Source: Pseudodesulfovibrio alkaliphilus
Lineage (GTDB): Bacteria > Desulfobacterota > Desulfovibrionia > Desulfovibrionales > Desulfovibrionaceae
Direction of reading: 5' to 3'
Assembly: GCF_009729555.1 (NCBI RefSeq)
Contig: NZ_WODC01000011.1
Location: forward strand, 1 to 64,000
Length of the DNA: 64,000 nt
The notes under the pieces are model-generated. The model had not been told where the DNA came from, made no database searches, and saw only the letters and a program-made list of their open reading frames with translations. A program made the position numbers and the translations under genes. Shown one piece after another: positions 6,926 to 19,113 of this stretch. Within the stretch, counting starts at the first letter, position 1. Each line of letters starts with the position of its first letter.

Positions 6926-6981
6926 GAAACCTCTCCTTGGAATGAAATTGAGTGTTGTTTTCAGACAACGGATATGAAAAT

Positions 6982-7350: not shown

Positions 7351-9855
7351 TTAAGAGCATTTATTTTTGCATATTTCCTTCCCGTCCACCACGGTGGTCC
7401 GGGCCTCTTCCCTTGTGGGGATCAACGCCATGATCACGGTTACAGCCACGCACAGGGCATAAAAAGCCCACATGGCCTGGAACCCGCTCAGCGAGAGCAT
7501 GCTCCCGCCGCTGAAGACCAGAACGGCCACAAACAGCCCGAGCAGAGACTGGTAGCCGATGGAGAACAGCATCCACTTGGTGGAATTGGCCTGATGGCGC
7601 ACCATGATCGAAGTGGGGATGCACGGCGGATACAAGGCCATGAAGAGCATCAGGGCCAGGGCGTGCAGCGGTGTGAACCCGGCCTCGGCCTGCTTCATGC
7701 TCTCCTCCACGGACAGGCCGGAACCGTCGATGCCGTAGATGGAGCCCAGGGTGGCCGCGCTGTTTTCCTTGGCCGCAAAGGCGGACAAAAGCGCGATGTT
7801 GATGCGCCAGTTGAACCCGGCGTACTGGGTGACAGGCTCAATGGCCCGACCGAGCACGCCGAGAAAGCTGCCCTCGAAGCGTTCGGTGCGAATTTCTCGC
7901 CGAAGCTGCTTGCGTGTTGAGATGACCTTGCGCAATTCCCGGTTCAGCGTCCTGCCGTCGTCTCCCTGCCGCCGGACCACGGCGGAGTAAACCGGGTTTG
8001 CCGCGTCGAAGCGCGCATTGATGGTGTCGGACACAGCCTGATCGGTAACGCCGACTTTGGCCTGCTTGAGGGCCTCGTCAAAGAGAATAATACCCAGCAC
8101 ATCATCGCGGGTGATCACACCCTTGTATTCGGTCTTGTCCACCTCGGCCATAAAGGCGTCTATGGCGGCCTTTTCCTCGGCGGCAAAGTGCGCCGCGCGT
8201 GTCTCGCTGAGACCGGGGAAGTTGATGAGCACGAAGACCACAACGGCCACCGCCGCCACAACGGTGATGATTTTCTTCAAAAAAAGCCATGTGCGCTCAA
8301 TGGACCGGCGCATCACGCCGCCCATGGTCGGCACATGGTAGGGCGGCATCTCCATGATGAATGGGGCATGTTCCTTCTTGCGCAGCACGGTCATGGAAAG
8401 AGCCTTGGCCACAGGCAGGGCCATGAACAGGGTCACAGTGGCGATGAAGAACATGGCCAACCCACCCGCTTGCGGAAAATAGGCATCAATGAGGATAAGA
8501 TAGAGCGGAACCTTGGCCAGGCAGTTCATCATCGGCACGATGAGAATGGTAGCCAGCCGGGCGCGTTCGTCCGGGATGGCCTTGGTAGCCATGACTCCGG
8601 GTATGGCGCAGCCGCCCACATACACCCCGCCCAGGATCATGGGCAGGGTGGACTGTCCGTGCAGACCGAAACGCCGGAAGAGCCTATCGAGGATAAAGGC
8701 CATGCGCGGCATGTATCCACTGTCCTCAAGGGCGGCGATAAAGGCGAAGAGCAGGATGAAGATGGGCAGATAATTGAGAATGGCGGTCATGGACTTGACC
8801 ACCCACTCGCCAAGGGAACGGACAAGCGGATCCTCGATGAAACCTGCTTCGGGCAGCAGATCGGAAACCAGGTTTTCGATGCCTCCCCACAAGGGCCACA
8901 CTTCAACGGCCAGCCATCCTCCGAAGACGATGGAAACCTGGTACAATGCCAGCAGAATAAGAATGAGAATGACCGGCCCCAAAACGCGATGGCATATGAA
9001 CCGATCCGCTCTGTCCGACAGTGAGCGCCCCCTGCCCTCCTCGACCGCCACCACCTCACGGGCAATGCGTCCGGCGGCGGTATGCCTGGCATAGGCAACC
9101 TGGCGCTCGATGTCGCGGCCCTCGCTTTCGAGGAATCCGGCCCGCGCCTTTGTCACCGCATCCATCACGGCCTGCGGTTCCGAATGCGCCCGGCGCAGCA
9201 GTGCCTCGGCTTCCTGGTCCTTCTCCAGCAGCTTCACCGCCAGCCAGCGCAAGGGATACTGCGCACCCAGGGTCGGCTCTTTGCCCAGCAAAATCGAAAT
9301 ATCCTCAATGCGCGGCTCAAGAGGGCCGTAATCCACCACGAACGGAGCCACCCTCTTGTCGGCATGGGCATTCTCCACGGCCATGCGGATGGCCTCCTTG
9401 CCTTCCCCTTTCTTGGCCACCGTCGGCACCACAGGGACGCCGAGAAGCTCCTCAAGTCTGGCGACATCCAGACTCTGCCCGCGCCGGGTGGCCACGTCCA
9501 TCATGTTCAGCGCCACCACAGTGGGCACCTCCATCTCGAGTAGCTGGATGGTGAGGTAGAGATTGCGCTTGAGATTGGAGGCATCGGCAACGTCGATGAC
9601 CACGCCGGGGTTGTCGTTAAGCAAAAAATCCCGAGCCACCCGTTCTTCAAGGGAATACGAGGTCAGGCTGTAAGTTCCGGGCAAGTCCACCAGTTCGACC
9701 CGCAAGTCGCCCAATGAAAAAAATCCCGTCTTCTTCTCGACGGTCACGCCAGGATAGTTGGCAACATGCTGACGGGCTCCGGTGAGCATGTTGAAAACCG
9801 TTGATTTGCCGCAGTTGGGCTGCCCTGCCAATGCGACCAGAAGGCTCGAACTCAT
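7351..9855 (-). CDS. feoB: Ferrous iron transporter FeoB
   Basis: This 834-residue FeoB imports Fe(II) across the inner membrane. The N-terminal G domain shows GQPNCGKST (P-loop, 11-19), the PGVT switch and DLPGTYSL (G3, about 57-64). The G4 motif reads NMMD, as in many FeoB proteins. After the helical regulatory segment come the Gate domains, with membrane helices from about residue 285 and the GGVYVGGCAIPGV and FALYPP-type (LYPPCIPT) regions. A soluble insertion at about 530-620 is rich in charged residues. The C-terminus carries two Cys (EICKNKCS). The start overlaps the feoA stop by four bases (ATGA), showing translational coupling in the order feoA2-feoA-feoB. Confidence 0.96.
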   Translation of the reverse strand: MSSSLLVALAGQPNCGKSTVFNMLTGARQHVANYPGVTVEKKTGFFSLGDLRVELVDLPGTYSLTSYSLEERVARDFLLNDNPGVVIDVADASNLKRNLYLTIQLLEMEVPTVVALNMMDVATRRGQSLDVARLEELLGVPVVPTVAKKGEGKEAIRMAVENAHADKRVAPFVVDYGPLEPRIEDISILLGKEPTLGAQYPLRWLAVKLLEKDQEAEALLRRAHSEPQAVMDAVTKARAGFLESEGRDIERQVAYARHTAAGRIAREVVAVEEGRGRSLSDRADRFICHRVLGPVILILILLALYQVSIVFGGWLAVEVWPLWGGIENLVSDLLPEAGFIEDPLVRSLGEWVVKSMTAILNYLPIFILLFAFIAALEDSGYMPRMAFILDRLFRRFGLHGQSTLPMILGGVYVGGCAIPGVMATKAIPDERARLATILIVPMMNCLAKVPLYLILIDAYFPQAGGLAMFFIATVTLFMALPVAKALSMTVLRKKEHAPFIMEMPPYHVPTMGGVMRRSIERTWLFLKKIITVVAAVAVVVFVLINFPGLSETRAAHFAAEEKAAIDAFMAEVDKTEYKGVITRDDVLGIILFDEALKQAKVGVTDQAVSDTINARFDAANPVYSAVVRRQGDDGRTLNRELRKVISTRKQLRREIRTERFEGSFLGVLGRAIEPVTQYAGFNWRINIALLSAFAAKENSAATLGSIYGIDGSGLSVEESMKQAEAGFTPLHALALMLFMALYPPCIPTSIMVRHQANSTKWMLFSIGYQSLLGLFVAVLVFSGGSMLSLSGFQAMWAFYALCVAVTVIMALIPTREEARTTVVDGKEICKNKCS

Positions 9856-10076
9856 TGGTGCTTCACCTCGACATACTTGGCTTCATCGTGCCGAATGCTG
9901 ACATGGTATCCGTCAAGTTGCAGCACCACGGGATCGACAAGCGGCGCGTTGCGCACCACTTCAATGCTCGCCCCCGGGCAGAACCCAAGGTCCATGAGCC
10001 GCTGCCCGAGCGGACCATCGGTATGCAGATCAACCATGACACACCGTGCGCCGGGTTTCATCTCATCCAGTGTCAT
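9852..10076 (-). CDS. feoA: FeoA ferrous iron transport protein
   Basis: This 74-residue SH3-like FeoA protein is thought to bind the FeoB G domain and modulate transport. The family pattern is visible: LGQRLMDLGFCPGASIEVV, then PVVLQLDGYHVSIRHDEAKYVEV. Its stop overlaps the feoB start by four bases. It lies 65 bases downstream of a second feoA-type gene, so the operon encodes two FeoA proteins, a recurring feature in Desulfovibrio-type feo operons. Confidence 0.93.
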   Translation of the reverse strand: MTLDEMKPGARCVMVDLHTDGPLGQRLMDLGFCPGASIEVVRNAPLVDPVVLQLDGYHVSIRHDEAKYVEVKHQ

Positions 10077-10141
10077 TCCCTAATACCCCCTGATCCGGGC
10101 GGCCCGGACCCGTTGTAAGTGATTTGGGCGCCGCGGCGACC

Positions 10142-10366
10142 TCAGGCGACCAGCACCTTGTCGGCCACGCCGCGCTCGACCATGATCCGCCCCTCGCCCA
10201 CCGAGACAAGAAGCGGCCCGCCGCCATTGGTAAGCACATCCACTTCAATCCCGGGAATTATGCCCATGGATTCCAGCCTGGCTCTGGCCTTGCCTCCGGC
10301 ATCCACAGCCAAAACAAATACGGATTCCCCGTCCGGCACACCGGCCAGCGTCCTTCGTGACGACAT
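10142..10366 (-). CDS. feoA: Second FeoA-domain protein
   Basis: This is a 74-residue FeoA/SH3-like protein with the pattern KARARLESMGIIPGIEVDVL, then GGGPLLVSVGEGRIMVERGVADKVLV. It is similar in size to, but clearly diverged from, the next feoA. It is the first gene of the leftward feo operon, and a Fur-box-like sequence lies 38-58 bases upstream of its start. Two FeoA proteins may act as a pair on FeoB, or this one may regulate it; sequence alone does not decide. Confidence 0.88.
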   Translation of the reverse strand: MSSRRTLAGVPDGESVFVLAVDAGGKARARLESMGIIPGIEVDVLTNGGGPLLVSVGEGRIMVERGVADKVLVA

Positions 10367-10403: not shown

Positions 10404-10424
10404 TGATAATGAATTTCGGTATCA
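10404..10424. promoter_or_regulatory. Putative Fur box of the feo operon
   Basis: GATAATGAATTTCGGTATC (10405-10423) matches 14 of 19 positions of the classical Fur box, and its outer bases form a TGATA/TATCA inverted repeat. It lies between the divergent feoA2 gene and the Fur-like gene, where it could control both. The left 13 bases are almost identical to a second site at 17922 upstream of siaD. Confidence 0.6.
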
Positions 10425-10578
10425 GAAATAGACCTTGAAACACGGAAGGTCAACGAAAAAATGCAATTGAGACGCAGTCTCAAAGAGGCGCGAGAAACCG
10501 TTCGCAATGACACGTTCATGACACTGCTCATTGCAGATAAACCCGCGAGAATACCGAACTGAACCACGGAGAGAGGTT

Positions 10579-11064
10579 GTGAAAGAGGCACTTAAGACAT
10601 TTAAGGATTATCTGGCTGCCAACAAGCTCAAGCTGACACGGCAGCGCCTGCTCATCTTCAAGGTCTTCCTGAGTCAGGACTCCATGCTGACCTCTGAAGG
10701 ATTGCTGCGCAAGGTTGTGGAGATGGATGCCACCATCAGCAGATCCTCGGTCTACCGGACGGTCAGACATCTTCACCAGTCCGGCGTGGCCCGCTGCATC
10801 CGGCTATCCGACGGAACCACCCGCTACGAACCCATGGGCGACCACCACAGCAAGATGATCTGCGAGCGGTGCGGTCGCCAGTTCCCACTCATCAACCCCT
10901 ATCTCGATTGCCTCCAGCGCGAGTCGGCGCGCCAGCAGCGGTTCACCCTCTTCCACTGCCAGACAGTACTGCACGGCCTTTGCCACGAGTGTACGAATGC
11001 AACCAACGGTGTCCCGGGCAGCCCCTGCGAGGCGGTCTGCGACACGACACGGGAGAAGCCATGA
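10579..11064 (+). CDS. Fur-family regulator, divergent metal site, next to feo
   Basis: This 161-residue Fur-superfamily repressor has a winged helix (about 15-75, LTRQRLLIFKVF, then SRSSVYRTVRHLHQSG) followed by a dimerisation/metal domain with ICERCGRQF and LCHEC, the two CxxC pairs of a structural zinc site. The regulatory metal region is unusual: where Fur normally has HHDH this protein has HHSK. The GTG at 10579 is chosen because GGAGAG precedes it; an upstream TTG at 10531 is possible but lacks a good site. It is divergent from feoA2 across a putative Fur box and overlaps the next small gene by four bases. Control of feo is likely, but the metal sensed may not be iron. Confidence 0.85.
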   Translation: MKEALKTFKDYLAANKLKLTRQRLLIFKVFLSQDSMLTSEGLLRKVVEMDATISRSSVYRTVRHLHQSGVARCIRLSDGTTRYEPMGDHHSKMICERCGRQFPLINPYLDCLQRESARQQRFTLFHCQTVLHGLCHECTNATNGVPGSPCEAVCDTTREKP

Positions 11065-11225: not shown

Positions 11226-11250
11226 CGCCTACGCCCCCCCGGCAAAAAAA

Positions 11251-11274
11251 CGCCGGGCCTTGGCAGGCCCGGCG
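11251..11274. terminator. Bidirectional terminator between two convergent Fur-family genes
   Basis: A perfect GC-rich stem (GCCGGGCCT at 11252-11260 with AGGCCCGGC at 11265-11273) has a four-base loop and a seven-A tract on its left. The A tract becomes a T run for the leftward fur gene ending at 11337, so termination is best supported in that direction. Confidence 0.75.
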
Positions 11275-11336
11275 CGGACGGATTCGCCTAGCGGGGGGAG
11301 GCGAATCGTCCTGATTCCCGAAAAAACAACGACAGG

Positions 11337-11771
11337 CTAGCCTGTCCCGGAACACCCGGGACAGAGGCCGTAGAGCACCATGCGGTGCCGGGTCAGCGTG
11401 AATCCGTGCTCTTGGGCCACAGCGGCCTGCCTGCGCTCAATGGTTTCATCCACGATCTCGACCTTGCGCCCGCATTCGACACAAACAAGATGATCGTGAT
11501 GGGCATGGCCATAGTGGTGTTCGTAAAGCGTCACCCCCTCGCCCAGGTCAAAGGCATCGGCCAGACCGGACTCCACAAGCAGCTTGAGGGTCCGGTAGAC
11601 CGTTGCCTGGCCGATGTCAGGCACCTGACTGCTCACACGAGTATAGAGCTGTTCCGCCGTGAAGTGCCCCTCGCTTTCGAGGAACGTCTCAACGATCACC
11701 CTGCGCTGGTGGGTCATGCTCATCCCGTTGTCGCCCAGATACTCCATGAACACCTGTCTTGCCGATTTCAT
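11337..11771 (-). CDS. fur: Ferric uptake regulator family protein with canonical metal ligands
   Basis: This 144-residue Fur protein has the winged helix (MTHQRRVIVETFLESEGHF, then DIGQATVYRTLKLLVESGLAD). The canonical site is complete: HAHHDHLVC with CVEC, the downstream Glu in ETIERRQ, His in LTRHRMVL, and CPGC. These are the usual ligands of iron-sensing Fur or the closely related PerR. The ATG at 11771 is preferred because AGGAG lies seven bases upstream; two earlier ATG codons lack this. It follows the MoxR/VWA string on the same strand, 23 bases after the stop of the 153-residue unknown gene, so it may be read through from the sia operon. Confidence 0.88.
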   Translation of the reverse strand: MKSARQVFMEYLGDNGMSMTHQRRVIVETFLESEGHFTAEQLYTRVSSQVPDIGQATVYRTLKLLVESGLADAFDLGEGVTLYEHHYGHAHHDHLVCVECGRKVEIVDETIERRQAAVAQEHGFTLTRHRMVLYGLCPGCSGTG

Positions 11772-11794
11772 CGTCTTCTCCTGTTTCCGCATCA

Positions 11795-12256
11795 TCAGAA
11801 TCCTGCCGCCGCCAGAAACCTCGCGGAGACCACACCCTTGGCGATGTGCTTTCTCGTGGCGTCCGTCAGATCAAGCTCGCTGACAATGTCCAGCGGCGCA
11901 CTGTCGTAGGCGGCGGTCAAAACCGTTTCAAAGTCGCGACGAAGCCGGGCAAAGGCCTCGTCCACGTCGCTGAAGTTGGTCCCTGGGCCTCGCCAGGGCA
12001 GCGTCAGGGTCTCACCGAAGGTCTTCATGACATGACTTGGGGTCATCAGCCGGTGCCACCCCGGCAAAGTCCCGGCTCGCTCATCCTGACCCGGATGGCA
12101 ATACGAGCGCCAGGCCGAAGGCGGCTTGACAACAGCCTTTTCCAAGACCACCTGGGGCACAGCCAGATCAATTTCAAAGGACTCCAGTTCAATGGAGTAG
12201 GTCAGCACCGGCCGGTGATAGCCGCGTCGCTTCCTGATTTCCCATTGCATCCTCAT
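11795..12256 (-). CDS. Unknown 153-residue protein of the MoxR/VWA cluster
   Basis: The ATG at 12256 overlaps the VWA stop by four bases, with GGAGG upstream, so the two are translationally coupled. The protein begins MRMQWEIRKRRGYHRPVLTY and then shows an alternating beta-type pattern (YSIELESFEIDLAVPQVVLE), a Trp/His/Pro-rich centre (SAWRSYCHPGQ) and a C-terminal helical region that mentions aromatic and acidic residues (FARLRRDFETVL). No known domain is recognised and no signal peptide is seen. Tight coupling suggests that it works with the AAA+ and VWA proteins, perhaps as a substrate or adaptor; this is inference. Confidence 0.6.
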   Translation of the reverse strand: MRMQWEIRKRRGYHRPVLTYSIELESFEIDLAVPQVVLEKAVVKPPSAWRSYCHPGQDERAGTLPGWHRLMTPSHVMKTFGETLTLPWRGPGTNFSDVDEAFARLRRDFETVLTAAYDSAPLDIVSELDLTDATRKHIAKGVVSARFLAAAGF

Positions 12257-13590
12257 GCGCCATCCTCCCTGACCGCCACCTCGACAATCTCGCCGAAGGG
12301 GGCAGCGGTTCCGCCTCCGCCCACCCGAGCCCAGAGAACCGGATACTCCGGCTCGCGCTCGGGAAAACGGGAGCATTCCATGTCCGTAAGATACACAAGG
12401 CAAGCCGGGATCACTCCCTCGGCCGCCACCCAGTCGAAGACCGGACGATAATCGGTTCCCCCGCCACCTACGGGTTCGATCTCAAGGGGCAGATCCGACC
12501 GACTGAAGGTGCGCACCGAGGTCAGCCCGGCATCGCAGCAAAGCACATGAACCGTGGTGTCATAGGTTTCAAGCAGGCCGGAAAGCTCGGCAGCGAACAT
12601 ATCCATCTCCCGCTCGTCCACGCTGCCCGAAGTGTCCAGAGCCAAAACCACTTCAGGAAGCCTGCGGTGCGACAGCGACGGCAGGACCACATTCATATGC
12701 AGGAAACGTCTGTTGGGGGGGCTCCAGCTATAGTCGTCCCTGGCCCGCTCGCTGATGTACCGGGACAGCAGCTCACGCCAGTCGAGCCGGGGGGCAAGCT
12801 GTTCGCGCACCAGCCGGGCAAGACCGCCGGGCAGCTCGCCGCACTCACGAGCCTGGCGCACTGCGTCGGCCAGGGCTATCTTCCACTCCTGATCCGTCTC
12901 GTCGTCCGACGAACCGCCTCCCTGGGCATGGTCAAGGGCGTCGCGTACCTCCCCACTCCCGCCCGGGTCCCCTTCGCCTTGGTCCTGAGCCTGCGACTCG
13001 TCCTCGCCGCCCTCGCCTCCGGCATCGCCGTCTTCGGCCGCCTTGGCCGCCCCATCGCCACTGTCGGCCCCCTCGCCAGGATCGCCCCCGTCGTCCGTAT
13101 CGCCCGGAGTGGGCAAAACCTCGCGCTGCTCCTCCTGGCCTGTTTCCCGGCCCTCACCGTATCCTTCCGAAGGCATGCCGTCGCTCCCGCGCACGGAGGA
13201 CAGCTCGGCATAGATGGCGTCAGCGCTCATGCCCCTGTAGGCAGGATTGTCCAAATGCCCCGGAGGCAGGGTGAACCCTGCGTCCAGAAGCACCCAATTG
13301 ATGGCATGATCGCAGGCCACGTTCCACAGTCCGGCGTCGCGCCCGTTGCGCCGGACATGGTGCTGACAGGCGGGGTGCATGACCGTATGGGCGAGCATAC
13401 CCAGCACCTGGGCCTCGCTCAAACTATCGACATAGGCCGGGTTGAAAGCAAGAACGCGGCCGTCGGTCCAGGCCGTGCGGCAGGAACGATCCTCCTTCGG
13501 CTCCATGCGCATGCACAGGGAACCGAAAAAGGGATGGTCCAGCAGCAGCGAGGTCCGAGCCCGGATCACTTTTTTGCGCGATGCGTTCAT
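12253..13590 (-). CDS. VWA protein with N-terminal metallopeptidase-like domain (DUF2201 type)
   Basis: This 445-residue protein has the two-domain layout of VWA partners of MoxR ATPases. The N-terminal putative metallopeptidase-like domain carries H68-T-V-M-H72 where family members often have HExxH, so the catalytic Glu is replaced by Thr. A long Gly/Glu/Asp-rich acidic linker (about 150-230) follows. The C-terminal VWA domain carries a clear MIDAS, LALDTSGSVDE, and a second metal-site Thr in GGGGTDYRPVF. The ATG at 13590 lies two bases after the AAA+ stop; longer upstream starts run into that gene. The pair is expected to act as an AAA+/VWA remodelling machine, substrate unknown. Confidence 0.82.
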   Translation of the reverse strand: MNASRKKVIRARTSLLLDHPFFGSLCMRMEPKEDRSCRTAWTDGRVLAFNPAYVDSLSEAQVLGMLAHTVMHPACQHHVRRNGRDAGLWNVACDHAINWVLLDAGFTLPPGHLDNPAYRGMSADAIYAELSSVRGSDGMPSEGYGEGRETGQEEQREVLPTPGDTDDGGDPGEGADSGDGAAKAAEDGDAGGEGGEDESQAQDQGEGDPGGSGEVRDALDHAQGGGSSDDETDQEWKIALADAVRQARECGELPGGLARLVREQLAPRLDWRELLSRYISERARDDYSWSPPNRRFLHMNVVLPSLSHRRLPEVVLALDTSGSVDEREMDMFAAELSGLLETYDTTVHVLCCDAGLTSVRTFSRSDLPLEIEPVGGGGTDYRPVFDWVAAEGVIPACLVYLTDMECSRFPEREPEYPVLWARVGGGGTAAPFGEIVEVAVREDGA

Positions 13591-13592
13591 GA

Positions 13593-14576
13593 CTAGAAGA
13601 GCACATCCGAATTGGCCGTGGCCCAATGGGCAAAGGCCGGGCACTCCACCACGCAGGGGGCGGTCCTGACGGAATCGCGCACCAGGAGCACGGCGAATTC
13701 GGCGGGCAACCTCGAGGCGTAGGCAATGATGCTGCCGGCGGTATCGGCCCCGGCCTTTCGGGCCAGTGCGCCGCACAGGGCGTACAGAGTGGCTGGCTCC
13801 TCGGGAATCTCCGCGGCATCCGGGCTTTCTATGACCCGGTCAGGATCAGGCAGTTGGCGATGGATGCGGGCGAACCCGATGAACTCCGCAGCCGCCCCCG
13901 GACCCACTGCGCCGCGAAGCAGATCCGCCTCAACCTCGGGAGCAGGGTCGGCCGCGAGCATCCGGGCCGCAAATTCCCAAGACCGAGGCGAGGGAAACGC
14001 CTTGTCGTCGCACCTGGGATCAAAGCTGTGCAGCAGATTGGGACGGTAGCGGACAAAGGCGCGAACCTCGTCGGGGAGCCCCTGAGCCTCGGCCCAGTCG
14101 AGCCACTGGTCGACATCCACTTCAAAATCAAGATGCACGAAGCGGTTGGACAGGGCCGAAGGCATCCTGTGGGTCACGGCCCTGTCGCTCTCGCGGTTGC
14201 CCGCCGCGATCACGGTCCACCCCTCGGGCAGTTCGTACTCGCCCACACGCCTATCCAGGATGAGCTGGTAGCAGGCAGCCTGCACCAGCGGCGGCGCGGC
14301 ATTGAGTTCATCAAGGAAAAGTACGCCCCGACCCGCAACGGGCAGAAAGGCGGGGGGGCACCAGCGGGCCGTCCCGTCGCTTGAGACGGCAGGGATGCCG
14401 CGCAGGTCCACGGGATCAAGCAGCACGGCCCGAAGGTCGGTCAATTCGCATTTTAGCTCGGCGGCCACCTGGGCCACCACCTGGCTCTTGCCCACGCCGG
14501 GAGGGCCCCAGATGAATACGGGCTGTCGGATGGGAATCAGCGTCCGCAGGGACGCCTTGATCTGGCTCGGTGTCAC
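13593..14576 (-). CDS. MoxR-family AAA+ ATPase
   Basis: This 327-residue AAA+ protein has Walker A GPPGVGKS (about 24-31), Walker B GVLFLDELN (about 84-92), a sensor-1 AAGNRESD region and an arginine in ALSNRFVHLDF. MoxR ATPases work with VWA proteins to activate or assemble partner complexes. The start is a GTG at 14576 with GAGAGG upstream; it lies 24 bases after siaC and two bases before the VWA gene, so the whole block probably forms one transcript with sia. The family is often linked to insertion of metal cofactors or to stress-related complexes, but the partner here is not identified. Confidence 0.88.
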   Translation of the reverse strand: MTPSQIKASLRTLIPIRQPVFIWGPPGVGKSQVVAQVAAELKCELTDLRAVLLDPVDLRGIPAVSSDGTARWCPPAFLPVAGRGVLFLDELNAAPPLVQAACYQLILDRRVGEYELPEGWTVIAAGNRESDRAVTHRMPSALSNRFVHLDFEVDVDQWLDWAEAQGLPDEVRAFVRYRPNLLHSFDPRCDDKAFPSPRSWEFAARMLAADPAPEVEADLLRGAVGPGAAAEFIGFARIHRQLPDPDRVIESPDAAEIPEEPATLYALCGALARKAGADTAGSIIAYASRLPAEFAVLLVRDSVRTAPCVVECPAFAHWATANSDVLF

Positions 14577-14600
14577 TATTCGCCTCTCATTGCTGCCCGG

Positions 14601-14987
14601 TCAATCCACGTACTCCACAAGATTGAACCGGAGGTTTCGCACGTCTTCCATGAATTCCTCGCCGCATTCCATGGCGGTCTCGTTTTCTTCGTGGTAGCGC
14701 CAGTTGACAACGATGCTGCGGCCCTTGGCGGCCTCGGAATCCAGCATGTCGAACAAATCCATGAAGGTCTTGGAGGAAGAGCTGTTGAAGTAGAGTATCT
14801 CCATGTTCAATTCCACCCGGTCGTTACGGGCGTCGGACAGAAACCGCTCAAGCCAATCGAAGACCGGGCTGTAGAAATTCGAGCAATTTTCAGGATAGGA
14901 CTCGCCCCGTATTTCCAAAATGCAGGTCTCGGGATCGAAATCTATATGCGGAGACGACTTGGTCGCCTGAACGCTGAAACGTGTCAT
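14601..14987 (-). CDS. siaC: SiaC-family regulatory phosphoprotein (DUF1987)
   Basis: This 128-residue single-domain protein matches the SiaC/DUF1987 layout: SSPHIDFDPETCILEIRGES, YSPVFDWLERFL, LNMEILYFNSSSSKTFMDLF. In Pseudomonas aeruginosa, unphosphorylated SiaC binds and activates the diguanylate cyclase SiaD, SiaB phosphorylates SiaC and SiaA removes the phosphate. The Ser/Thr-rich segment at 69-74 (SSSSKT) is the expected phosphorylation region. It is the last of the four sia genes here and is preceded by siaB at a nine-base interval. The presence of all four partners makes the assignment firm. Confidence 0.88.
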   Translation of the reverse strand: MTRFSVQATKSSPHIDFDPETCILEIRGESYPENCSNFYSPVFDWLERFLSDARNDRVELNMEILYFNSSSSKTFMDLFDMLDSEAAKGRSIVVNWRYHEENETAMECGEEFMEDVRNLRFNLVEYVD

Positions 14988-14996
14988 GACAAACTC

Positions 14997-15551
14997 CTAC
15001 TGGGCCACTACTTTCATGGAAAAAAACGAGGTGTCGCAGTCCAGAGGAACAAAGTCGAAGTCCATGGGGCGCGACGATTGACGGGCCATCTCAATAAAGC
15101 CGAGACCGGCACCCTTGGAATCCGCGTCCGGCAGTCTCCGACGACGTTCGCGATAATATTCCTTGAGATCCTGCCTGCCCATGGTGCGCAACAACTCAAG
15201 CTGGCCGGCCAGCCTGTCCACGTCCTCGGTGCGCACCTTGTTGCCGCAGGCAACAAAAAAACTGCCATCACTTTCACGCCCGACAACAACCTGACCATGA
15301 GCCATTTCACCCAAACCCTGGCTCAAGTGCGACGAACGCTCGGACGAGTAGCGCACGATGTTCTGCATCTGCTCCACCAGGATGGAGAAAACGCGCTGTA
15401 CGCTGGCCATGGCCGCATCCTCGGCGCGCATCTTCTCGCGCATGATCCCGGCCAACCCCTCGACCATGGCTTGGGACACTGGCCCGTTAAAATAGAGGAT
15501 CGTGCCCTTTGCCCTCATTTCCTCGTAATATTTATACAAATTTGTTGCCAT
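14997..15551 (-). CDS. siaB: SiaB-family protein kinase
   Basis: This 184-residue protein resembles SiaB kinases, with KGTILYFNGPVSQAMVEGLA at the N-terminus, then RVFSILVEQMQNIVRYSSER, a GHKL-like N-box helix, and a GAGLGFIEMAR glycine-containing segment before the C-terminal strand DTSFFSMKVV. SiaB phosphorylates SiaC and so lowers SiaD activity. The ATG at 15551 is chosen because GGAGGAG precedes it; an earlier GTG at 15566 would place that ribosome site inside the coding region. It lies 11 bases after the siaA stop. Confidence 0.85.
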   Translation of the reverse strand: MATNLYKYYEEMRAKGTILYFNGPVSQAMVEGLAGIMREKMRAEDAAMASVQRVFSILVEQMQNIVRYSSERSSHLSQGLGEMAHGQVVVGRESDGSFFVACGNKVRTEDVDRLAGQLELLRTMGRQDLKEYYRERRRRLPDADSKGAGLGFIEMARQSSRPMDFDFVPLDCDTSFFSMKVVAQ

Positions 15552-15562
15552 ATTCTCCTCCG

Positions 15563-16741
15563 TCACCTGACATCAAAGCCGAGTACGGTCATGTCGTCGC
15601 GGCGGGGCTCCTCGCCCTGATAGGCATTGACCAGAGCCAGCAGCTCCTCGCCAAGCCCTCCCACGGGCTGGTCCGCCCTATCCTCCAGAAACCGCATCAG
15701 CCGACTTTTGCCAAAGGGCAATCGCCGGGGACCGCCCACCTGATCCACGATGCCGTCAGTGGCCATGCAGACCCGGACACCGGGCGACAACGCCACCTCG
15801 ACATCGGAAAAAACAAAATCCCGAGGAGAGCGAACATGACCGAGGCCGCAACGGTCGCCACGGATGCGACGGGCCGCACCCGCCTCCACCACATACAGAG
15901 GCGTGTTGGCTCCTGCGAAAACGAGCCGGGAACTCCCTGGCGCGATATGGCACAGGGCGCAATCCATGCCGTCGTCCGAACGGGCATCGCCCCCCTTCTG
16001 GCCCAGGGCGTCCTTGATCAGCGCGTTGGTCCTGGCAAGCACGCCCGCTGGCGAGGTGTCGCCGACAACCAGCGCCTTTTCCAGTAGCGACTGAACGATC
16101 AGCGTCATGAACGCGCCGGGCACTCCATGGCCCGTGCAGTCGATCACTCCCACGAAGAAGCCTTCGCCCCAGGGCTTGACCCAGTAAGCGTCTCCACCCA
16201 CAACATCCCGCTGAAGCCAGAGCAGGAAGTGGTCTGGCAGGACAGCGGCAAGCTCCGCCTCATCGGGAAGAAACGCGGCCTGAATGTGCGAGGCGTAGTC
16301 GATGCTCTCAAGGATCTGGTTTCGCGCCTCGGCCAGGGACTGCATGGCCGTGGTCAGTCTGCGCTGGCGGCTGGCGATGGCATGGCCCATCCAGTGCATG
16401 TTGCGCTTGAGGTTCGCGAAGTCGTGCCCGTCCTCTTCATCGGGCGGCGCCTCTGTCAACACGTATTCGCCACGCTTGAGCAACTGGCACTGTGCGTTGA
16501 GTTCACGGATGCTGCGCAGGGCGATGACCTGACTGAGCCACTTGGCCAGAGGCACCACCAGGATGATGCCTACCACCAAAAATCCAACCATGAAGTTGAT
16601 GACCGCCTGTTGGGCACCCGAGTGCCAAAACACCAAAGCGGTCAGGGGAAAAGCCACCATGGCCGCAAACAGCACGGCCGTCATCTTGCCCTCGACACTC
16701 ATGGACGAAGCGGTACGTAGCAAGCCAGTCGCAACGCGCAC
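15563..16741 (-). CDS. siaA: SiaA-type membrane PP2C (SpoIIE) phosphatase, short form
   Basis: This 392-residue protein has two closely spaced membrane helices (about 19-41 and 46-68), a HAMP-like linker and a complete SpoIIE/PP2C phosphatase domain: DVVGGDAYWV, GVIDCTGHGVPGAFMT, ATDGIVDQVGG and RRDDMTVLGF supply the metal-binding Asp residues. In Pseudomonas, SiaA dephosphorylates SiaC in response to an external signal through a large periplasmic domain; that domain is absent here because almost no residues separate the two helices. The start is a GTG at 16741 with GGGGG upstream; an internal ATG at 16702 is an alternative. It starts four bases after the siaD stop. Confidence 0.86.
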   Translation of the reverse strand: MRVATGLLRTASSMSVEGKMTAVLFAAMVAFPLTALVFWHSGAQQAVINFMVGFLVVGIILVVPLAKWLSQVIALRSIRELNAQCQLLKRGEYVLTEAPPDEEDGHDFANLKRNMHWMGHAIASRQRRLTTAMQSLAEARNQILESIDYASHIQAAFLPDEAELAAVLPDHFLLWLQRDVVGGDAYWVKPWGEGFFVGVIDCTGHGVPGAFMTLIVQSLLEKALVVGDTSPAGVLARTNALIKDALGQKGGDARSDDGMDCALCHIAPGSSRLVFAGANTPLYVVEAGAARRIRGDRCGLGHVRSPRDFVFSDVEVALSPGVRVCMATDGIVDQVGGPRRLPFGKSRLMRFLEDRADQPVGGLGEELLALVNAYQGEEPRRDDMTVLGFDVR

Positions 16742-16744
16742 TTC

Positions 16745-17887
16745 TCAACCCCCACTGCCGTCCGGGCACCCCGGCCCGTTGTCAGCGCTTCTGCGCGGGC
16801 AGACCGACCGCCGATAGACCTCCACCCGATCCCGGCCATTCTTTTTGGCCGCATACAGGGCGATATCCGAATACTTGAGCAGCGAATCGATGCTGTCCTG
16901 GGGCTGTTCCAGCGAAGCCAGCCCGATGGACACTGTCATGCGCAACGTCCCGGCCACAGACTCGATAGCGGCCGAGCGCACTGCGCGGGCAATGCGGGCG
17001 GCCACGGCGCAGGCATCCTCCGCCGAGGCATCGGGGAGCAACACGCCGAACTCCTCTCCGCCAAGCCTGGCGGCCACATCCACCTCGCGCACCGATTCGC
17101 CGAAAATACGGGCCAGCTCCACAAGGGCCATGTCCCCCACATCATGGCCGTGGGTGTCGTTGATGGCCTTGAAATGGTCAACGTCAATCATCAGCAGCGC
17201 GAGATCGCCCCCCTTTCGCCGAGCCCGATTCAGCTCGCGTCCGGCCAGTTCCATAAAATATCCTCGGTTCCACATGCCCGTCAGACTGTCAGTTCGCGCC
17301 AGACGACACATTTCCTCAATCATGTCCTTGCGTTCAGTAACATCAACCAACACGCCGACCACTCCCTGCAGCCCGACTCCGTCCGCCTCCACCGCACTGG
17401 CACTGATCTCGACCCACAGGCTCTCCGATCCCGGAGCGCGGACCCGGGCCTCATACCGCCGGGCGTCGCCCGAGGCGAGCAGGGCCTCATAAATCCGATA
17501 ATCGTCCGGGTCGCAGAAGAGACGGTGAAGCAGCCCCACTTCGGCCACAAACGCTTCGGGGCTTGCGCAGCCGAACATGGCGGCCATGGCCGGATTGACC
17601 TCCACCAACCGCCCGGCCGAATCGCATCGATAAATCCCCTCGGTCACGTTCTCGAAAATGCTTCTGTATTTCCGTTCGCTCTCAGCGAGATCGCGGTTGA
17701 GATTGCCCAGCGTCTGCTGCATGCGATCGCCCATGGTCACCAGTCTGCGGCTTTGGCGGCAGAGCTTCTCGTATTCGGCCACCAAGGCGGAAAATGCGGC
17801 GGCGTCCCGCTGCCAGGAGTCATCGGCAAGAGCCTCCCGCGCCAGGGTCAACACCCGCTCTTCTCTTCTGAACACTTCCTTGTGCAT
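16745..17887 (-). CDS. siaD: SiaD-type diguanylate cyclase with inserted PAS domain
   Basis: This 380-residue enzyme makes c-di-GMP. The N-terminal helical region (MHKEVFRREERVLTLA, then YEKLCRQSRRLVTMGDR) resembles the SiaD coiled coil that receives SiaC. A PAS domain follows at about 70-190 (YRSIFENVTEGIYRCDSAGR at its start), ending VDVTERKDMIEE, and then a GGDEF domain at about 200-355 with an active-site GGEEF at 276-280 and a product-inhibition RxxD (REVD) at 267-270. It is the first gene of the leftward sia-moxR string. A Fur-box-like site lies 35 bases upstream. The PAS domain adds a possible second input. Confidence 0.86.
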   Translation of the reverse strand: MHKEVFRREERVLTLAREALADDSWQRDAAAFSALVAEYEKLCRQSRRLVTMGDRMQQTLGNLNRDLAESERKYRSIFENVTEGIYRCDSAGRLVEVNPAMAAMFGCASPEAFVAEVGLLHRLFCDPDDYRIYEALLASGDARRYEARVRAPGSESLWVEISASAVEADGVGLQGVVGVLVDVTERKDMIEEMCRLARTDSLTGMWNRGYFMELAGRELNRARRKGGDLALLMIDVDHFKAINDTHGHDVGDMALVELARIFGESVREVDVAARLGGEEFGVLLPDASAEDACAVAARIARAVRSAAIESVAGTLRMTVSIGLASLEQPQDSIDSLLKYSDIALYAAKKNGRDRVEVYRRSVCPRRSADNGPGCPDGSGG

Positions 17888-18282
17888 GGTTCCCCCCGGA
17901 CGACATGCCGCCCGAAAACGTGATATTGAATTTCATTTTCACTGTCAACGCAAAACAGAAAGGGAAACGCTCCGGCCGATGTCCAGGCAACGAGAGAGAA
18001 TTTCGGACCGGGCACGATGTCGGGACGCTCCCATAATCGCCCCTGCGGGCCTGGATTGCGAACGCGGCTGCCGTCATTGAAGCCACACGGCAGGCTTTCG
18101 CCCCCCTGACAACCCAGCGCGACCTGAAATCCGACATGCCGCAAAACCATGACGCGGAGAGGGTGATCGTTTACGGGGCAAGGGGACGGCGACACCCCGA
18201 CAATGATCGTGAGGATCAAAGACGGTTGCCTGATGCGGCATCGGTCGGCAAAAGTCACTTCACTTGTCGACGACCATGGCAT
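17888..18282. other. 395-bp divergent intergenic region, siaD / binding-protein gene
   Basis: This gap separates the leftward siaD operon from a rightward periplasmic binding protein gene, so it should hold both promoters. The only element I can support is the Fur-box-like sequence at 17922-17940. The part from about 18000 to 18270 is GC-rich and open in the rightward frame, but it has no ribosome site and no protein-like composition. Confidence 0.5.
17922..17940. promoter_or_regulatory. Fur-box-like site upstream of siaD
   Basis: GATATTGAATTTCATTTTC matches 14 of 19 positions of the classical Fur box. Its left 13 bases differ by a single base from those of the site upstream of feoA2 at 10405. 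It ends 35 bases before the siaD start codon, where a repressor could block transcription. Binding is not shown. Confidence 0.5.
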
Positions 18283-19113
18283 ATGATGCCAGTTATGATT
18301 CCCATCAAGCCCCCCGGCTGTTCCGCGCCATGGTCCTTCAGGGCTTCATTGGCGGACCTGCCTCAACTCTTCATACTGTCTCTGGGGCTGATACTGGCCC
18401 TTGCGCTGCGTTCGCCCGCTGCCGCGCAACCCGCCCTCATCTCCGAGGTGGTCTCGGCCGGCAAATCCTGGGGCACCTTCACCAATCCCGATGGAACAGG
18501 ACTCTACCACGAAATCCTTGAGGCCGTCTTTGCCCTGCACAACATCTCAGTGCGTCACGAATACGCCACCTCGGACCGGGCCGAGGAGCTGGTGCGCCTG
18601 GGCCAAGCAGACATGATGCTCTGCGCCGACAAGGCGTCGCCTCCTTTGGTCATGGCTCGAATGCCCATGTACCAAAACGCCTTCCACGTCTTCTTCAGCC
18701 GCGAACGCATCGGCCTGTGGCAGGGGGCGGAGAGCCTGCGTAACAAGTTGATCATCAGCCAGCCCGGCTACTATTCCCAAACGAACTTCCCGGTGCCGGT
18801 CCGGCTCAAGTTCGTGACCAGCGGCACCCAGGCGCTGGGCATGGTCCTCCTGGGCAGGGCCGACTTCTATGTGGACGACATGATCCTTATGCAGGAATCC
18901 GTCCGCGAGAACACCATCCCCTTCAATGCGCAAGACTTCGACATCCGACAGGCCGGGGTGCGCTCCTACCACCCTCTTTTCAGCACCTCCGAGCGGGGTC
19001 TCGCGCTCATGGAACTATACGACGAGGGCATACGCACCCTGCATTCCCGAGGCATCTTGAGAAGCATCTACGAAAAATGGGGGCACCCCTACCCGGATTT
19101 CGACAGACGATGA
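18283..19113 (+). CDS. Orphan periplasmic solute-binding protein (family 3 type)
   Basis: This is a protein of about 276 residues with an N-terminal signal segment (LFILSLGLILALALRSPAAAQ), so it is exported. The body follows the SBP family 3 layout (GTFTNPDGTGLYHEILEAVF, then ADMMLCADKASPP, then DFYVDDMIL). No ABC transporter genes are adjacent on this strand before serine dehydratase. The start is uncertain: ATG codons at 18283, 18286 and 18295 lack a strong ribosome site. It is divergent from siaD, so it could act as a periplasmic sensor for that system, or it may be a general amino-acid-binding protein. Confidence 0.7.
   Translation: MMPVMIPIKPPGCSAPWSFRASLADLPQLFILSLGLILALALRSPAAAQPALISEVVSAGKSWGTFTNPDGTGLYHEILEAVFALHNISVRHEYATSDRAEELVRLGQADMMLCADKASPPLVMARMPMYQNAFHVFFSRERIGLWQGAESLRNKLIISQPGYYSQTNFPVPVRLKFVTSGTQALGMVLLGRADFYVDDMILMQESVRENTIPFNAQDFDIRQAGVRSYHPLFSTSERGLALMELYDEGIRTLHSRGILRSIYEKWGHPYPDFDRR

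Follow-up and report, generated by a model that had tools for sequence, protein, structure and literature searches.

The window considered here, a stretch of 64,000 nucleotides of the Pseudodesulfovibrio alkaliphilus genome (contig NZ_WODC01000011.1, positions 1 to 64,000), encodes together all four families of the SiaABCD cyclic di-GMP (c-di-GMP) switch, namely SiaC, SiaB, the PP2C protein SiaA, and the GGDEF protein SiaD. On its minus strand, a siaD-like gene for a PAS-GGDEF protein (16745..17887) is followed by a siaA-like gene for a SpoIIE-type PP2C protein of 392 residues (15563..16741), the gene of a siaB-family kinase (DUF6272, NCBIfam SiaB family; 14997..15566), and siaC (PF09345; 14601..14987). 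The string then continues into the genes of a MoxR-type AAA+ ATPase (AAA_5; 13593..14576), a VWA protein with DUF2201_N and DUF2201 domains (12253..13590), and a protein of 153 residues, here called X, which is the third gene of a MoxR-VWA-X cassette and matches no Pfam or NCBIfam family (11795..12256). The domains were assigned from Pfam and NCBIfam matches of the open reading frames (ORFs); ORFs, matches, and coordinates agree, which confirms the seven-gene string that an earlier note had read from the sequence.

The gaps between successive genes from siaD to X are 3, -4, 9, 24, 2, and -4 bp, as the same note had it (spacings of -4 to 24 bp without a terminator), and a scan of the minus strand found no terminator-like site between the seven genes and one weak site inside siaD. 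The siaC/moxR junction, where a promoter together with a terminator would separate the two blocks, holds no terminator-like site and one weak promoter-like site (9/12), in a scan that gave 3 such sites against 1.8 expected by chance. The string does not end at X, as had been supposed: the start of a Fur-family gene (11337..11795) overlaps the stop of X by 1 bp, so that there are eight genes and not seven, and a strong terminator-like hairpin (11 pairs, 9 of them G-C, with a T run) lies on the 3' side of this gene at 11250..11275.

Predicted Fur boxes ahead of the two modules

The siaD promoter reads TTGACA-17 bp-TATCAC (17920..17948, minus strand). Its spacer is filled by the palindrome TGAAAATGAAATTCAATATCA (17921-17941), which ends 33 bp before the siaD ATG and fits a 21-bp Fur-box pattern without a mismatch. 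In Desulfovibrio, the Fur palindrome has been given as WTGAAAATNATTTTCAW, with overlapping boxes shifted by 6 bp (PMC545781), and both features recur in the window. The regulon members in the available part of that paper include feoAB, a P-type ATPase, an AraC regulator, and a GGDEF gene; SiaABCD is not named among them there. In the same work, Rodionov (2004) predicted a Fur-controlled operon for a MoxR-like ATPase and a CoxE-like protein in D. desulfuricans G20 (392971-70-69), the role of which was called unclear. Like the second half of the string described here, it is a three-gene MoxR/VWA-like string behind overlapping Fur boxes, and its third gene is likely X; it differs in that no Sia genes are reported with it in that part of the source.

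The search pattern was drawn from the siaD sites of relatives and from the feoA site, with the reversed pattern as a control. It gave 40 strand matches in the own genome against 0 for the control, and the siaD site is one of two matches without a mismatch. Since the pattern was shaped by the siaD and feoA sites, the ranks of these two are not independent evidence, whereas the other genome sites are. Nineteen places were given a locus, and their neighbours include FeoA and FeoB (a second copy), a FUR paralog, two TonB receptors, four AraC regulators, an ECF sigma factor, a DUF4198 protein, a CobW protein, and a P-type ATPase with HMA_2 opposite a catalase; at three of the 19, the scanned ORFs have no Pfam match. 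Clusters with P-type ATPases also lie near three Sia loci (L074, L085, and L236; individual gene loci read are numbered with L and individual genomes with G), and in the own genome the HMA_2 one (C1:679690) stands behind a Fur box. These clusters might be ferrosome-like iron storage genes, the models matched being only HMA_2 and heavy-metal ATPase.

A matrix made from 18 own-genome sites, with the siaD site left out, was then applied to the 300 bp upstream of the genes (score >= 20) in the loci read. Among siaD-first operons, a box precedes 13 of the 16 in the genus and 5 of the 7 outside it; among cassettes without Sia, a box precedes moxR in 2 of 3 genus cases and in 20 of 28 others. No box was found upstream of siaA (0/24; 22 of these loci are siaA-first, and L081 and L123 are siaB-first). 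Before the inner genes taken as controls (in-operon moxR, VWA, siaB, and siaC), 0 of 65 positions reached P <= 0.01 and 1 of 65 P <= 0.05; the P values are conservative because the null windows come from the same loci and contain real sites. The start points were offsets from alignments and are wrong for the SiaD proteins without PAS (L073 and L078). A scan of whole loci found boxes farther ahead of siaD in L071, L226, L073, and L078 (within ~0.6 kb) and in L070 (at 1.4 kb). The same scan placed boxes before siaB in L081 and L123 and, in six loci of the genus, where X meets fur; in 28 of 31 Sia-less cassettes it found one at most ~420 bp ahead of moxR. In the Sia-less loci L088-L107 and L127-L131, which are 15-16 kb long, most hold a single Fur box, and this is ahead of moxR. 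The moxR result is independent of the siaD-derived pattern. On these predicted sites, both modules are independently members of the Fur regulon, and their joining has put both under one predicted box.

Iron genes also lie next to the string in the window. Beyond the hairpin is a second, convergent Fur-family gene (10531..11064, plus strand), and then, on the minus strand, a Fur-box-like site with one mismatch (10404..10424) preceding two feoA-like ORFs read by eye (10366-10142 and 10076-9852, together 9852..10366), and feoB, which encodes 834 residues (7351..9855). A weaker Fur-box-like site, with 3 mismatches, is found downstream of feoB (6943-6963), near genes conserved with it. FeoB is encoded no more than 7 kb from SiaC in 18 of the 55 Sia loci, and outside the genus this holds for nine of the 27 family loci that were read (from 28 such places; seven genera; the match in L085 is weak). 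Because FeoB is mostly present in one to three copies per genome, a chance closeness is very unlikely, which is an estimate and not a test. In four loci (L075, L076, L079, and L082), feoB even stands between siaA and siaB, giving the order siaA-feoB-siaB-siaC-siaD, and two of these siaA-first loci (L076 and L082) have one box farther upstream. In a Humidesulfovibrio metagenome-assembled genome (L134, 1133-6829), feoB directly precedes moxR-vwa-X and has a Fur box ahead of it.

Conservation of the joining and the MoxR-VWA-X cassette

Among 36 genomes of the genus, SiaC is present in 18 and VWA in 19; 16 have both, two SiaC only, three VWA only, and 15 neither (Fisher p 3e-5, without correction for relatedness). 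In all 16 genomes with both, the two are on the same contig and strand, so that the siaC-moxR neighbourhood is conserved in 15 other genomes of the genus and the linkage is not due to chance; the earlier note had made its proposal depend on such co-occurrence outside this genome. With starts chosen by script, the SiaC-MoxR gap is -4 to 31 bp in 15 of the 16, and in these 15 gene order and short gaps are kept at roughly 50-95% protein identity. In the remaining one, G531, the gap is 1401 bp and contains a gene for a protein like methyl-accepting chemotaxis proteins (MCPs). Three genus genomes have MoxR-VWA-X-fur without Sia (L239-L241).

In a sample of 119 family genomes, SiaC occurs in 30 (28 over the cut-off), VWA in 36, and X in 35, all of which also have VWA. 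That this family is Desulfovibrionaceae follows from the MoxR of G077, which is identical to the protein in a named Desulfovibrionaceae record. Outside the genus, 12 family genomes hold both SiaC and VWA, and in none of them are the two linked within the flanks read. Since MoxR-VWA-X occurs throughout the family with no Sia linked to it, it is a cassette in its own right, and its fusion with Sia is seen in one genus only. A search for SiaC across the phylum found it in 10 of 395 genomes, the own genome included, and nine loci from seven of the other nine genomes contain no MoxR, VWA, or FeoB match. A tree of 49 MoxR rows groups the 19 rows from the genus together (support 91/81, which is below the star of the program). 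Among the rows labelled for Sia, the label has to change at least twice, and the tree is compatible with a single joining after which Sia was lost in G512 and in the pair G509/G525.

The MoxR protein of the window has its Walker A motif at residue 24 and its Walker B motif at residue 85, and when MoxR was compared with solved structures, seven sequences were matched, all of midasin or AFG2-type AAA+ proteins. The VWA protein retains the MIDAS motif DTSGS (the MIDAS expression matched 41 of 49 VWA sequences, this one included) and gave no match to solved structures up to E 1. Its zincin motif HExxH is changed to HTVMH (residues 68-72, window 13375-13389). The form HT[VI]MH is found in 19 of 19 genus sequences and also in L088, L092, and L135, with HIVMH in L089, and 26 of the remaining 30 sequences retain the zincin Glu (49 in all, with G077 counted twice, as L104 and L139). 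With this motif altered, the VWA protein is probably not a peptidase here, and the change is probably older than the joining because Sia-less MoxR relatives share it. Across 28 sequences of X, 22 columns are invariant, and one of these is a Cys; AlphaFold models of four sequences had a mean pLDDT of 67.9 and Foldseek gave no PDB match at E <= 0.001, so no fold is claimed.

Elsewhere, the MoxR-VWA pair NorQD inserts iron, and RavA-ViaA assists respiratory enzymes (PMC9976466 and PMC13036017, as far as these sources were available). The likeness to NorQ/NorD and RavA/ViaA consists in a MoxR AAA+ protein with a VWA partner; the window differs in its DUF2201-type VWA with a broken zincin motif and in having X as a third protein.

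The Sia proteins and the probable target of SiaC

All four Sia proteins of the window fall below the cut-offs of the equivalog models of the P. aeruginosa type; SiaB passes the SiaB subfamily model and SiaC the Pfam model. SiaD consists of an N-terminal stalk, a PAS domain, and a GGDEF domain with GGEEF and the RxxD I-site intact, so the additional PAS domain pointed out earlier is indeed there. In SiaA, two hydrophobic segments lie near each other, and the match to the SiaA model is confined to its last part, positions 308-657 of 658; the periplasmic sensor is absent, again as claimed, and the PP2C (SpoIIE) domain matches PDB 6k4e. The gene order with siaD first and the short SiaA, which the earlier note had taken as changes in this system, are present in the window but not particular to it, since they recur outside the genus, in L073, L074, L078, L080, L083, L085, and L086. 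A SiaD matching that of the window over most of its length, PAS region included, is found in the genus and in L080 and L083-L086, and not in L073 or L078. SiaC has Ser69 at the position of Thr68 in P. aeruginosa, and Ser is found in all 16 linked genomes. The likeness to the P. aeruginosa system thus lies in the four protein families and in a stalk motif (S/G)DRxQ in SiaD; the differences are siaD in first place, a SiaD with PAS and one docking motif, the sensor-less SiaA, Ser for Thr68, the Fur-box promoter, and the continuation into moxR-vwa-X-fur.

Structural studies place SiaC on the stalk of SiaD, where S82, D83, R84, Y85, and Q86 belong to one motif and S50/Q54 to another (PMC8457831, in the part available, from which the docking-motif residues were taken). 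The stalk of the window SiaD carries one such motif, GDRMQ, at residue 53 (profile match at residues 31-71); its N-terminus gave a single weak match among solved structures, to a designed protein. A docking profile was built from 22 SiaD stalks, that of the window included, so that these seeds match by construction. It was run on 821 neighbour proteins, of which 527 came from the 55 Sia loci, 267 from 32 Sia-less MoxR loci, and 27 from others, with a cut-off of E < 0.001. A protein is marked in 41 of the 55 Sia loci. None is marked among 42 MoxR, 48 VWA, 43 X, 23 FeoB, and 15 MCP-cluster proteins, and nothing in the Sia-less MoxR loci. The 14 Sia loci without a match include two cut by contig ends (L074 and L228), four with weaker SiaD matches (L083, L086, L118, and L124), and two in which ORF picking chose an opposite-strand frame over siaD (L072 and L082); in L081 and L123, which have the order siaB-siaC-MCP-siaA, no protein with the docking motif was seen. 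Because the motif is in the SiaD stalk and absent from MoxR, VWA, and X, the target of SiaC in the window is most likely SiaD. The idea that phospho-SiaC controls the AAA+/VWA machine finds no support in this profile, and the cassette occurs without linked Sia.

In ten loci, the gene directly behind siaC carries the docking stalk on a protein other than SiaD (profile E < 0.001). The stalk is attached to a GAF-HD-GYP cluster in L087, L125, L126, and L214 and to a class III cyclase cluster in L116, L120, L237, and L238 (one member of each was scanned with Pfam), and also to a histidine kinase-like protein in L217 and a protein of 137 residues in L216; L087 has a further match on the opposite strand, 2.2 kb from siaC. 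The presence of the stalk on differing output domains suggests that SiaC is an adaptor that can be re-aimed. An MCP-like gene lies directly behind siaC in eight loci (L074, L080, L081, L083, L086, L123, L225, and L236, the last belonging to the genus), and the L080 protein, the sole one scanned, has HAMP and MCP signal domains. MCPs were therefore considered as a target of SiaC but rejected, as the docking motif is missing from their cluster.

A proposed Fur-controlled operon and its alternatives

The explanation that accounts best for these observations, to which we give a probability of about 0.72, is an operon of eight genes that Fur controls and iron starvation turns on. In it, a sensor-less SiaABCD and MoxR-VWA-X, each a member of the Fur regulon in its own right, would have been joined, probably once in the ancestry of the genus, and a shared promoter would suffice without direct contact. 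When iron is scarce, Fur would vacate its site between -35 and -10, and all eight genes would be co-transcribed; the encoded fur would be a likely feedback brake, closing the loop. SiaA would dephosphorylate SiaC, presumably at Ser69, and SiaB would reverse this. Free SiaC would dock on the stalk of SiaD and activate c-di-GMP synthesis, so that c-di-GMP would rise, with the PAS domain of SiaD perhaps contributing a signal from the cytoplasm. At the same time, MoxR and VWA, with X as a dedicated third subunit, would act as a remodelling or metal-insertion chaperone for a client that is probably an iron enzyme. For P. aeruginosa, induction of and a need for siaD are reported when iron restriction is combined with a competing species, and not under iron restriction alone (PMC13192264, in the part available).

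Several observations weigh against this explanation. The siaD part of the Fur-box test is partly circular, as opposed to its moxR part and the other genome sites. Three loci (L132, L133, and L135) hold MoxR-VWA-X without a box in the whole-locus scan. No box was found anywhere in 20 other Sia loci, siaA-first where the order is readable, nor in the stretch read of L075 and L079, two of the loci with feoB between siaA and siaB. Since siaA-first loci lack boxes, the Sia switch in general is not an iron system. SiaC has Ser in place of the Thr68 of P. aeruginosa, and SiaD has one docking motif instead of two. Finally, a chaperone role for MoxR-VWA-X is proposed by analogy with NorQD and RavA-ViaA only.

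Another explanation is that the joining was neutral, an accident inherited within an iron gene cluster, with co-location as the only link between the modules. It would fit with the restriction of the linkage to one genus (0/12 elsewhere in the sample), with a MoxR tree that is satisfied by one joining and at least two Sia losses, and with the 15 genus genomes that lack both modules. Against it stand the retention of gene order and tight spacing in 15 of the 16 genomes at roughly 50-95% protein identity and the independent Fur boxes on both modules, and we hold it to be improbable. Less probable again is a direct switching of the MoxR/VWA machine by SiaC, free or phosphorylated, or by c-di-GMP. 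The tight siaC-moxR junction conserved in the genus and the co-occurrence of SiaC and VWA there speak in its favour, and the variety of partners adjoining relatives of SiaC, together with L081 and L123, leaves room for modes of binding other than the docking motif. However, the motif is absent from all three proteins of the cassette, the cassette lacks linked Sia in the rest of the family and any Sia in three genus genomes, and in G531 an MCP-like gene separates siaC from moxR. A shared iron (Fur) promoter would explain the association of Sia with MoxR more simply than control by SiaC.

A broader form of the Fur-operon explanation, which we regard as unlikely, is that a Fur-driven iron-starvation programme couples c-di-GMP to an iron-enzyme remodelling machine (MoxR-VWA-X) in one operon, and that SiaC is a general plug-in adaptor activating any signalling enzyme that bears the stalk (GGDEF, HD-GYP, class III cyclase, or histidine kinase), so that Sia would be re-aimed by swapping the next gene.

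What is already predicted in PMC545781, as far as that source was available, is the Fur control of a MoxR-like/CoxE-like operon in D. desulfuricans G20 and of a GGDEF gene. In a search of the open-licence literature, neither a SiaABCD-MoxR fusion nor a link between SiaC and FeoB was found, in keeping with the earlier statement that the combination of Sia with MoxR-VWA is not known as a described system; nor were Fur boxes before siaD-first Sia operons, a wide distribution of the cassette, or the docking motif in other SiaC neighbours. New here are the Sia-MoxR fusion, the predicted Fur boxes on SiaABCD operons, and the SiaC-docking stalks on other signalling enzymes. If the Fur-operon explanation is true, one type of SiaABCD c-di-GMP switch would be placed under the control of iron through Fur, and the poorly studied MoxR-VWA-X machine would gain a physiological setting, that of iron starvation in sulfate reducers. 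The stalks would moreover suggest a readable docking code, with which the partner enzyme of SiaC could be predicted from sequence.

Opposite siaD lies a divergent gene (window 18136-19113) that has no Pfam match and by eye resembles the gene of a periplasmic solute-binding protein; it shares its upstream region with the siaD Fur box.

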